A DNA stretch of 64,000 nt, taken from assembly GCA_016198585.1 (NCBI GenBank), contig JACQII010000008.1, positions 1 through 64,000 of the forward strand. Reading direction: 5' to 3'. This document shows, piece after piece, positions 15,532 through 36,072 of the stretch; position 1 is the stretch's first letter; the number at the start of each line of letters is the position of its first letter. Both the position numbers and the translations under genes were made by a program. Source of the DNA: Candidatus Aenigmatarchaeota archaeon (GTDB taxonomy: Archaea; Aenigmatarchaeota; Aenigmatarchaeia; QMZP01). The notes under the pieces are model-generated. The model was not told the origin of the DNA. It made no database searches and saw only the letters and a program-made list of their open reading frames with translations.

Positions 15532-17328
15532 TCAGAGCTCCTCCACCTGGACGTTCGGGTAGACGCCCATCGATTTGATCTCGTCCAGGGTCAGCTTGAA
15601 GGCGTAGGAGGTCTCCACCCACTGGATGGACGACTCCTTGCAGATGGAACAGAAGGTCCTGTTCTTGGCGACGTCGTGGGTCGCGATCATGCCGCACTTG
15701 GTGCAGACAGGCATGAAGGCCTTGTCCGAGTCGAACCGCTCCTTGAGCGTGAGCGCGGCGCCGTGGCCGATCAGGCACTGCTGCTCCATCTCCCCTATCC
15801 GCAGGCCGCCCCGCTTGGCCCGGCCCTCGGTCGGCTGCTTCGTCAGGAGCGTGACCGGACCGCGCGAGCGGGCGTGGATCTTGTCGGTGACCATGTGGTC
15901 GAGCTTCATGTAGAAGGAGATGCCCACGTAGATGCGGACAGTGAACGCCTTCCCGGTGCGGCCGTCGTACAGGACCTCTTTGCCGTCGTCGCGGAATCCC
16001 AGGCGCTTCAGGAGCTTCCGGATGTCCTCGTCCTTCATGTGGTCGAAGGCCGAGGCGTCGACGGTCTCGCCGTTGAGCGCGCCGGTCTTGGCGGCGATGA
16101 TCTCGAGGAGCTGGCCGATCGTCATCCGCGAGGGGATCGCGTGGGGATTGAAGATGATGTCGGGGACCACGCCACGGCCGGTGAAGGGCATGTCCTCCTG
16201 GTTGACGAGCAGGCCGACCACGCCTTTCTGCCCGTGGCGGGAGGCGAACTTGTCGCCGAGCTCGGGCTGCCGGGCGTCGCGGATGCGGATCTTGAACAGC
16301 TGGTCTGCGTCAGTCGTCTCGGAGATGAAAATCGTGTCGACCAGGCCGCGCTCGCCGTGCTTGATCGTGACTGAAGTCTCGCGCTTGTTCTCGATGTCCG
16401 AGGCGAACTCCTCGGTGGTGAGGAACCGGAGCGGGGAGATCTTCCCTACCAGGACGGAGTCGCTCGTCACGAAGGACATCGGGTTGATGATGCCGTCGGC
16501 GTCCAGGTCCTTGTAGGCGTCCTCTCCCCGGAATCCCTTGATCCCCGGTTCGGGGATCTGGATCGCGTCTTCCTGGCCTCCCCAGTAGCGCTTCTTGAGG
16601 GTCTCGTACGTCCTGAAGTAGAAGCTGCGGGCCAGGCCGCGCTGGATCGAGGACTTGTTCAGGATCACGGCGTCTTCCATGTTGTAGCCGTCGTAGCAGC
16701 CGACCGCGATGACGATGTTCTGGCCCTCGGGGAATTCGGACAGGACCTTACTGGTCTTGGTCTCGACGAGCGGGACCTGGGGATAGGCGAGGGCGTTGAA
16801 CTTGGTGTCGGTCCGCAGGAGGTAGTTGCCGGTCGGCACGCCGATCGACTGGCCCACCATCTTGGCGCCGTAGTTGATGCGGTCACCGCGGTTGTACTCC
16901 GGATAGGGGATCAATCCAGCAGAGAGGCCGAGCAGGGAGATCGGGTCGATCTCGACGTGGGTGTGGTCCTTACCGATCTGGTCCTCGCGGAGCGCGACCA
17001 GGGCGTTCTCCTCCTCCTCGGCGTCCAGGTATTCCACGATCCCGTGGGCGACCAGGAACGACCAGTCCGCCTGGCCGGCGTCGACCTTGGCGCGGACGGC
17101 CTCGGTGAGGCGGGACTTGCCGTTCTCGACGATGATCAGCGGGCGCCGGACGCGGCCCGCGTCGGTGGAGATGCGCACTTCCCGGAACTCGGGGTAGTAG
17201 ACCGCGTTCAGCTGGATGGAGAGCAGCCCCATCCGGCGTTTCTTCCGGACGTTCGCGACGTAGAGGTCGGGCTGGGCCGCCTCTCCGATGCGCTTGCCGT
17301 TGAAGTAAATATCTGCCTTGTCTTTCAT
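15532..17328 (-). CDS. rpo2C: DNA-directed RNA polymerase subunit B'
   Basis: C-terminal part of the second largest RNA polymerase subunit, 598 residues. Characteristic segments: GYDGYNMEDAVILNKSSI, GDKFASRHGQKGVVG with the conserved nucleotide-binding Lys, and RGGLRIGEMEQQCLIGHGAA. A C-terminal zinc site is visible as CTKCG...CSICK. The B subunit is split into two genes, with the break just before the segment starting MKDKADIYFNGK; this split is seen in many euryarchaeal lineages and absent in Crenarchaeota. Spacing to rpo2N is 4 nt. Confidence 0.97.
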   Translation of the reverse strand: MKDKADIYFNGKRIGEAAQPDLYVANVRKKRRMGLLSIQLNAVYYPEFREVRISTDAGRVRRPLIIVENGKSRLTEAVRAKVDAGQADWSFLVAHGIVEYLDAEEEENALVALREDQIGKDHTHVEIDPISLLGLSAGLIPYPEYNRGDRINYGAKMVGQSIGVPTGNYLLRTDTKFNALAYPQVPLVETKTSKVLSEFPEGQNIVIAVGCYDGYNMEDAVILNKSSIQRGLARSFYFRTYETLKKRYWGGQEDAIQIPEPGIKGFRGEDAYKDLDADGIINPMSFVTSDSVLVGKISPLRFLTTEEFASDIENKRETSVTIKHGERGLVDTIFISETTDADQLFKIRIRDARQPELGDKFASRHGQKGVVGLLVNQEDMPFTGRGVVPDIIFNPHAIPSRMTIGQLLEIIAAKTGALNGETVDASAFDHMKDEDIRKLLKRLGFRDDGKEVLYDGRTGKAFTVRIYVGISFYMKLDHMVTDKIHARSRGPVTLLTKQPTEGRAKRGGLRIGEMEQQCLIGHGAALTLKERFDSDKAFMPVCTKCGMIATHDVAKNRTFCSICKESSIQWVETSYAFKLTLDEIKSMGVYPNVQVEEL

Positions 17329-17332
17329 GGGA

Positions 17333-18778
17333 TCACGCGAGCGATTTCAGGATCTTCTCCTCTTCATCCGCAGAGATGCCGGGAGTGATCTCGGCCAGGA
17401 GCGCGAGGTGCTTCCGGAGGCCGATCGAGCTTCCTTCAGGGGTCTCGGCCGGGCAGAGGCGGCCGAACTCGGTCGGGTGGATCTGCCGGGCGCGGAAGTG
17501 CTCCTGGGTGGTGGTCAGGGGCGACATCACCGAGCGGAGGTGCGAGACGGTCTTGGTGTACGAGCTCCGGTCGAGCCGCTGCGAGACGCCGGACCGGCCG
17601 CCGATCCAGTTGCCGGTCGCGAGGGAGGAGAGGATCTGCTTGCTGACCGCGTCGGCCTCGATGATGCCCTGGATGGTCGGGGTCTTGCCGCGCTTGATCA
17701 GCTTCTGGTAGTTGTAGGTCATCTTCGCGAGGAGGCCCCAGCGCCCAAGGAGGATCGACCGGAAAAGCTGCGAGAGGAGCTCGCCCGAGGTGAGGAGGCG
17801 CTTGTTCGCGTAGTGGTCGATGTCGTCCTCGGGGATCTTCCGCATCGACAGGAGGATGGTCTTCTTGATGACCCGGGAGAGCACGCGGGCCTTGTTGAGC
17901 CGGTCGGCGGTCTCCTGGCCGACGTGCGGGAGCAGGTAGCGGTCGAGTATCTGTGCCACCCGCTCGTCGCGGTAGTCCTCGTCTACCCGGAGCTTCTTCC
18001 CGATGACTTCGACGGCCGATTTCTGCGTTGCTGCTTCCTCCTGGTAGAGGTTGATGAAGAACTCGTTGAGGATCTGGGGGTCCGAGGAGATGTTGAGGGA
18101 GATGTCGCGGTCGGTCTCCATGCCGAGTGCCTTGAGCAGCGTCACGATCGGGAGCTTGCGGATGTTGGCGAAGGAGATGCTGATCTCACCGTCGCCGCGG
18201 CGCTCGATGAGGTGCCGCTGCTTGAAACCGGCGCGCTCGGAGTTGATGCGGACGCTCACCAGGTCGCCGGCCGCCTCGAAGATGGGCTTGTTGTTGGCGA
18301 TCTCCTCGATGAGGACGATGACGCGCTCGGTCCCGTTCACGATGAAGTACCCGCCGGGGTCGGCCGGGTCCTCCCCGCGCTGGATCAGTTCCTTGTCCGC
18401 GAGGCCTGCCGTGGAGCAGAGGTCTGATCGGATCATGATCGGGATGGCGCCGATGTGGACCTTCTCAGGCTTCTCCTGGACGCCGTTCATGACCGGGACG
18501 ATCTCCACGAAGAGCGGGGCAGAGTAGTTGAGGTTCCGGATGCGGGCCTCGTTGGGGAACAGCGTCCGGGTCGAACCGTCGGCTTCCTTGACCACGGGGC
18601 GGCCGACGCTCACCTTGCCGAAGACGAGCTTGATGTCGCCCAATTCAGGCGAGAGCTTGACTTCCTTGATCTCGTTGATGATGTTCTGGAGGCCCTCGGC
18701 GATGAACCGGTTGAAGGAGTCGATCTGGAACGTGACGAAACCGCGTTCCCTCTCGAACAGTTCAATCAGGTTCACCAT
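17333..18778 (-). CDS. rpo2N: DNA-directed RNA polymerase subunit B''
   Basis: N-terminal part of the second largest RNA polymerase subunit, 481 residues. It begins with the ELFERERGFVTFQIDSFNRF region and contains GGYFIVNGTERVIVLIEE and, near the end, CPAETPEGSSIGLRKHLALLAEI, the fork-loop region before the split. The neighbour rpo2C supplies the remainder. The rpo5 stop is immediately upstream (adjacent bases). No inserted domain was noticed. Confidence 0.97.
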   Translation of the reverse strand: MVNLIELFERERGFVTFQIDSFNRFIAEGLQNIINEIKEVKLSPELGDIKLVFGKVSVGRPVVKEADGSTRTLFPNEARIRNLNYSAPLFVEIVPVMNGVQEKPEKVHIGAIPIMIRSDLCSTAGLADKELIQRGEDPADPGGYFIVNGTERVIVLIEEIANNKPIFEAAGDLVSVRINSERAGFKQRHLIERRGDGEISISFANIRKLPIVTLLKALGMETDRDISLNISSDPQILNEFFINLYQEEAATQKSAVEVIGKKLRVDEDYRDERVAQILDRYLLPHVGQETADRLNKARVLSRVIKKTILLSMRKIPEDDIDHYANKRLLTSGELLSQLFRSILLGRWGLLAKMTYNYQKLIKRGKTPTIQGIIEADAVSKQILSSLATGNWIGGRSGVSQRLDRSSYTKTVSHLRSVMSPLTTTQEHFRARQIHPTEFGRLCPAETPEGSSIGLRKHLALLAEITPGISADEEEKILKSLA

Positions 18779-33433: not shown

Positions 33434-33796
33434 TCAGAGCATGGCCAGGGTCTTCCGCTGGCGCATGGTGATCACTTGCAGGCGGCGCGCGTGGATGCGG
33501 CGGATGAGTTCCCGATCTTGCGTGCAGACCGTGAATCGGTCGGCCAGCTTCAGGAGGGCAGCATCGGCCGATCTCCCCTCGACCGGGATGACCCGCACGC
33601 CCTGCTGCCGCAGCTGGAGGAGCGCGAGCCGGGCATGCTTCCCGGCGACTCCCTTCTCGGCAAGCTTCTCCAGCTCCTGGACCACCAGGCTCACTGTATA
33701 GAAGCGCGGCGCGCCGAACCCGAGCAACTGGTCGTACACGTCGACGCGGAACTGCGCCGGGATCAGCAGGAAGTTGGTGTCAAGGAGGAAGGGCAT
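33434..33796 (-). CDS. PIN-domain protein of the FCF1/UTP23-like archaeal type
   Basis: 120 residues. Acidic PIN residues appear in FLLDTNFLLIP, VVQELEKLAEKG, and CTQDRELIRRI, which suits a metal-dependent RNase. The length and the VCTQDRELIRRIHARRLQVITMRQRK ending resemble the archaeal Fcf1-like group involved in rRNA processing; a VapC toxin is less likely because no antitoxin gene is adjacent. A TATA box GATATATATAC lies 30 nt upstream. Confidence 0.8.
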   Translation of the reverse strand: MPFLLDTNFLLIPAQFRVDVYDQLLGFGAPRFYTVSLVVQELEKLAEKGVAGKHARLALLQLRQQGVRVIPVEGRSADAALLKLADRFTVCTQDRELIRRIHARRLQVITMRQRKTLAML

Positions 33797-35599: not shown

Positions 35600-35851
35600 C
35601 TAGATGTTGAAGAGGTAGATGACGCCGACCAGCCAGAAGAGCACGTAGATGGCCGCACCATTGGCGAGCCACCACTTCACGCCCTTCTTGCCCAGGGCCC
35701 GTTCCAGGAGAAAGTCGGCGGCGAACAGCACGATCAGGCCTAGCCCGAGGCCGGCGAGGCCGGTGACCACCATCGTCGACGCGTAGGCGACACCCGCGGC
35801 GAGTAGCGAATGCACTACGACAGAGACCCGGATTTGGTTACCATCCTGCAT
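35600..35851 (-). CDS. Small three-helix membrane protein, 83 aa
   Basis: Three hydrophobic segments (about residues 9-29, 31-48, 62-82) with a short polar start MQDGNQIR. No motif. It starts 5 nt after the stop of the 29-residue basic peptide gene upstream on the minus strand, so the two probably share an mRNA. Confidence 0.65.
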   Translation of the reverse strand: MQDGNQIRVSVVVHSLLAAGVAYASTMVVTGLAGLGLGLIVLFAADFLLERALGKKGVKWWLANGAAIYVLFWLVGVIYLFNI

Positions 35852-35856
35852 ACAGA

Positions 35857-35946
35857 TTATTTCCTCTGGTGTCGCGTCTTTCGCCGGCGCTTCTTCAGCT
35901 TGTGCTTCTTCATTTTCGAGCGCTTTCTCTTTCTGCCGCTGGGCAT
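35857..35946 (-). CDS. Very basic 29-residue peptide resembling the AURKAIP1/COX24 (mS38) motif
   Basis: 29 residues, of which about two thirds are Lys, Arg or His. The core KRKRSKMKKHKLKKRRRKTR closely resembles the C-terminal motif of mitochondrial AURKAIP1/COX24 (ribosomal protein mS38), also found as tiny proteins in some bacteria. Such peptides bury into rRNA. The start at 35946 has a GAGGTGA Shine-Dalgarno; an ATG at 35967 would add seven residues. TATA GCATATAAGCC is about 45 nt upstream. It is the first gene of a unit with the membrane protein. Confidence 0.65.
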   Translation of the reverse strand: MPSGRKRKRSKMKKHKLKKRRRKTRHQRK

Positions 35947-36072
35947 CGTTGACGTCACCTCTTGCATTGTTCTTTGGGCGCGCGGGCTTATATGCGTTGC
36001 TCTTGCCGTGCGCACGGTGATGCCCCGCCTATGGAGCGCTGCCCGCGGCCTCTCGGATGGAGAGAGGGACCA

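Follow-up and report, generated by a model that had tools for sequence, protein, structure and literature searches.

A 29-codon archaeal reading frame as the probable gene of a small-subunit ribosomal protein of the bS22/mS38 family

Does a reading frame of only 29 codons, situated on the contig of an archaeon, represent a gene, and if so, of which protein? The frame lies in the window, i.e., the whole stretch of 64,000 nucleotides that was analysed, and its translation reads MPSGRKRKRSKMKKHKLKKRRRKTRHQRK (minus strand, Table 1). A first-pass annotation had noted in this peptide the KxMKKHKxxKRRRxTR pattern of the mS38/COX24 motif and upstream of it a Shine-Dalgarno sequence and a TATA box. 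All three are present, the motif in the form of SKMKKHKLKKRRRKTR and the two signals at the positions given in Table 1. We presume, with a probability of roughly 0.9, that the ORF is the gene of a small-subunit ribosomal protein of the bS22/mS38 (COX24_C) family, which takes the place of eL41. The host is an archaeon, since genes of RNA polymerase A and B (both subunits being split), aIF2 gamma, CDC48, PolB, and uL6 are found in the window. Due to these archaeal core genes and the recurrence of orthologues across the phylum, contamination was rejected as the origin of the ORF.

Table 1. Position of the bS22/mS38-type gene, its upstream signals and further genes in the window
Feature	Coordinates	Strand	Remarks
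bS22/mS38-type ribosomal protein gene (probable)	35857..35946	-	29 codons, ATG start, TAA stop
Shine-Dalgarno GAGGTGA	35955..35961	-	-15 to -9 from ATG, 8 nt before bS22 ATG
TATA-like box CATATAAG	35987..35994	-	-48 to -41 from bS22 ATG
Downstream neighbour, 83-aa predicted small membrane protein	35600..35851	-	conserved; no Pfam family
PIN_9 domain protein	33434..33796	-	Pfam 60 bits; about 2 kb downstream of bS22 gene
RNA polymerase B subunit	15532..18778	-	two genes; A subunit split too

Judged from its sequence, the window peptide is a member of the COX24/mS38/bS22 family. COX24_C (PF08213) was its sole Pfam match (25 bits versus a cut-off of 23). A phmmer comparison to all PDB chains with E-values up to 10 returned exactly three matches, namely 7jil_5 (bS22 of Flavobacterium), 8fmw_V (bS22 of Borrelia), and 9i5v_10 (an AURKAIP1/COX24-domain chain), all of which are aligned end to end and without gaps, so that the similarity to structurally verified bS22 covers the full length. 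The same three chains head the matches of a profile of 49 archaeal sequences searched against every PDB sequence (Borrelia bS22 2e-7, 9i5v_10 2.8e-6, Flavobacterium bS22 4.9e-6). The next match is the mitochondrial mS38 chain 8a22_BC (E 0.0096), and the other matches are at chance level (bL35 0.37 and above, yeast mS38 6.7). Among the 49 archaeal orthologues, 24 match COX24_C at E<=1, and no other Pfam family was matched by any of them.

Archaeal bS22 is largely invisible to standard annotation, because the COX24_C cut-off is passed by one of the 156 genomes of the phylum that were scanned, the window's own, and because the NCBIfam model NF047430 (actinobacterial-type bS22 equivalog) misses these sequences. 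The search of NCBIfam with the window peptide gave no match, and NF047430 itself was matched neither by this peptide nor by one archaeal orthologue nor by the Flavobacterium bS22, while the positive control, a M. smegmatis-type bS22, reached 62.6 bits. Due to a length of about 29 aa, a whole ribosomal protein family has thus been missed by annotation models. Weak PF08213 matches in G090, G125 (contig C41), G028, and G019 (E 0.058-0.085) were dismissed as noise after inspection of the frames; the true bS22 copy of G125 is located elsewhere than on contig C41.

The nearest relatives are bacterial bS22 of 28-30 aa from Bacteroidota, spirochaetes, and Zixiibacteriota. With 7jil_5 of Flavobacterium johnsoniae and 8fmw_V of Borrelia burgdorferi, the window peptide shares 17-18 identities over 28-29 residues, the MP(S/C)G(K/R)KRK start, and the HK.KKR...RH core; apart from their bacterial hosts, these proteins differ by R17 and N24, where the archaeal sequences have L17 and, in most cases, M24. 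The closest non-archaeal sequences that were detected, two ORFs of Zixiibacteriota (L037 and L038, 72% identity in tblastn), combine the archaeal-type L17 with the bacterial N24. They were also the only matches when named genomes of bacteria and archaea were scanned with a six-row archaeal profile, a procedure which requires short exact peptide patterns and thus is no measure of the spread of the family. We know of no structure of a Zixiibacteriota bS22-like ORF. Actinobacterial bS22 (NF047430) is the same named protein at the same site (PMC10085706), but belongs to a distinct subfamily, whose model the archaeal and Flavobacterium sequences miss. The resemblance to mitochondrial mS38 (AURKAIP1/COX24) proposed in the first-pass annotation is correct as to the family, the Pfam domain being the same, and is refined here as to the closest relatives: mS38 of animals and fungi is far longer, carries the domain towards the C terminus, and its similarity is much weaker than that of bS22.

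From these relatives we infer ribosome binding, site, and function of the archaeal protein; the unrecognised ribosomal peptide suspected by the first-pass annotation is very probably what the locus encodes. Bacterial bS22 sits in a cavity lined by h27, h44, and h45 and contacts large-subunit rRNA (PMC10085706, PMC10618245), and both eL41 (PMC7005279) and mS38 (PMC6582356, PMC7005279) have been placed in the same cavity. Most likely, the archaeal bS22 would be lodged between these 16S helices as well, in the place held by eL41 (eS32) in Thermococci and some other archaea. By homology, its expected role is to stabilise the upper end of h44 close to the decoding and P sites and to serve as an intersubunit bridge. 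The family is already known from bacteria and mitochondria, and no report of it in archaea was found in the open-access literature searched, i.e., without subscription papers and preprints. A bacterial and mitochondrial ribosomal protein would thereby be extended to ribosomes of several archaeal phyla, and the site gains a candidate occupant; what fills it in archaea lacking eL41 has been called puzzling (PMC7005279).

Since the site is shared, the peptide could also be a diverged archaeal eL41, i.e., the member of a family different from bS22/mS38, which we consider improbable. Like bS22, eL41 is a tiny basic helix reported in this cavity (PMC7005279, PMC11724365), and some authors propose a single universal protein, uS22 (PMC10085706). 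Yet no sequence similarity to archaeal bS22 is detectable, and eL41 membership was rejected by profiles in both directions. PF05162 is matched neither by the window peptide nor by the 49 orthologues; none of the ten PDB matches of the archaeal bS22 profile is an eL41 chain, and a profile-profile comparison of archaeal bS22 to eL41 produced no alignment. Furthermore, none of the eL41 sequences in the comparison has the MPxG, HK, and RH residues that the archaeal peptide shares with bacterial bS22. With PF05162 and a Thermococcales/eukaryote eL41 profile, no credible match and none over the cut-off was obtained in the window's phylum, an absence that is provisional, since the eL41 profiles are of modest sensitivity (the control M. 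jannaschii remained below the curated cut-off).

Across 392 archaeal genomes, bS22 was found in 73 and eL41 in about 29, and in none of the 392 does bS22 coincide with a credible eL41. G354 alone is listed for both, its eL41 match being a 16-residue fragment (E = 0.043). At the level of families, the two sets (19 for bS22 and 6 for eL41) are disjoint as well. This exclusion follows phylogeny, so that the single genomes do not count as independent evidence: lineage history alone could yield it, and competition for one site predicts the same pattern. L41e is described as sparsely distributed in DPANN (PMC9258230). The proposal of a universal uS22 becomes testable with the archaeal sequences, which also bear on the question whether mS38 and eL41 are convergent.

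Slightly less probable still is a role outside the ribosome, as a conserved basic peptide with affinity for DNA, tRNA or mRNA. Such a role would suit a Lys/Arg content of more than 60% and the observation that the free bS22 peptide of C. acnes is antimicrobial and inhibits translation (PMC10085706), but the peptide resembles, over its full length and without gaps, proteins that were solved inside ribosomes, and its N-terminal MPCGRKRK segment is among the most conserved parts. Residues other than Lys and Arg (M1, P2, C/S3, G4, and H15) recur in archaea and bacteria alike, with little or no variation at P2, G4, and H15.

A similarity to bS22 beyond mere basic composition is indicated by shuffled sequences as well. 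With a bacterial-only bS22 profile, the window peptide scored 35.7 bits, compared to 18.4 for the best of 50,000 shuffles, so that it stands clearly apart from arbitrary Lys/Arg-rich peptides, a distinction on which the first-pass annotation had made its proposal depend. In ungapped comparisons to the bacterial sequences, shuffles of unchanged composition had mean scores of 41-45, whereas the real scores were 94-116 (z about 9-13). For the 79 distinct sequences of all loci retrieved, two of them bacterial and some from other archaeal phyla, a mean pS of 0.96 and a mean pN of 0.18 were determined (pN/pS 0.19), and pN was lower than pS in all 3,081 pairs. Synonymous sites are saturated among the orthologues, while the protein level is conserved; amino-acid identity amounts to 73% in frame compared to 36% in the other two frames. 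The ORF is a true gene, and the selection acting on it is strongly purifying. Its often retained downstream neighbour and its Shine-Dalgarno and TATA signals speak for a gene as well. A Lys/Arg-rich reading frame due to chance, as might be suspected from the very short ORF and the many relatives without it, is rejected by the shuffles, the codon-level selection, and conservation in about 100 genomes, and its probability is close to nil.

A profile built from six relatives detected the bS22 gene in 57 of the 156 genomes of the window's phylum, among them almost all genomes of the order to which the window belongs. The gene is thus conserved in close relatives, and, as a refinement of the first-pass annotation, it is not confined to this archaeal group. 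In a sample of relatives spanning the archaeal domain, 16 further carriers were found outside the phylum. In a second archaeal phylum it occurs in 24 of 29 genomes (without exception among the 5 with a completeness of at least 90%), in a third one, with a patchy distribution, in 18 of 34, and outside these three phyla in at least one genome (G359). In total, about 100 archaeal genomes of at least three phyla carry bS22, apparently mostly from small-genomed lineages. Except for G127, which contains an additional partial tandem copy, all carriers of the own phylum have a single copy. The partial copy (L059:1887-2095) is situated 51 bp downstream of bS22 and lacks the N-terminal segment.

In one genus of the third phylum, bS22 is present in G167 and missing in G189 and G209, and its presence also varies within the genus of G268 and G229, all of these genomes being near-complete. 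Such patchiness within genera suggests that bS22 was recently lost, was transferred or has diverged beyond detection. At E<=0.05, the bS22-lacking genomes of this phylum gave no eL41 match, and roughly two in three genomes of the own phylum show neither bS22 nor eL41. Because of these genomes with neither protein and the patchy occurrence in the third phylum, the protein is either dispensable, replaced or too diverged in the genomes without a match. With its 29 residues, the protein offers too little signal for a tree to distinguish transfer from descent.

A Shine-Dalgarno core of at least 5 nt was found upstream of the orthologues in 32 of 73 genomes, compared to 6.8% of random positions, and a TATA-like hexamer in 56 of 73 loci, the latter being a raw count without a background rate. 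In case of L100, L102-L104, and L107-L114, a TATA-like box precedes the bS22 ATG by about 30 nt and a Shine-Dalgarno sequence is missing, which suggests that many bS22 mRNAs of the second phylum are leaderless.

Ten genomes of the own phylum and two of the third phylum have ATT or ATA in position 1, in most cases preceded by a Shine-Dalgarno sequence at a suitable distance. For eight of these an alternative start is possible, namely a GTG overlapping the Shine-Dalgarno sequence, or an upstream ATG at a distance of two codons in case of L053. The open frames of G115 (L023), G129 (L042), and G127 (L059) contain no ATG, GTG or TTG, so that AUU or AUA, which follows a good Shine-Dalgarno sequence, seems to be the start of their bS22. 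The case of G417 (L181) is similar, the nearest of these three codons being a TTG situated eleven codons upstream. Bacterial infC starts at AUU, and by analogy such starts may add an initiation-dependent self-regulation to some archaeal bS22. More speculative, and rather doubtful at present, is a scenario in which bS22/mS38 is ancient and was present in early archaea and bacteria, eL41 and bS22 being alternative or anciently diverged occupants of one universal decoding-centre site that replaced each other along archaeal lineages, with self-regulation possibly added in this way.

The downstream 83-aa neighbour is kept in about half of the bS22 carriers of the phylum. Besides the window's own genome, 30 genomes of the phylum have a homologue on the same strand within 1.5 kb, the match of G129 being weak (E 0.004). 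A PIN_9-like protein is also encoded near the bS22 orthologues of G128 and G123.
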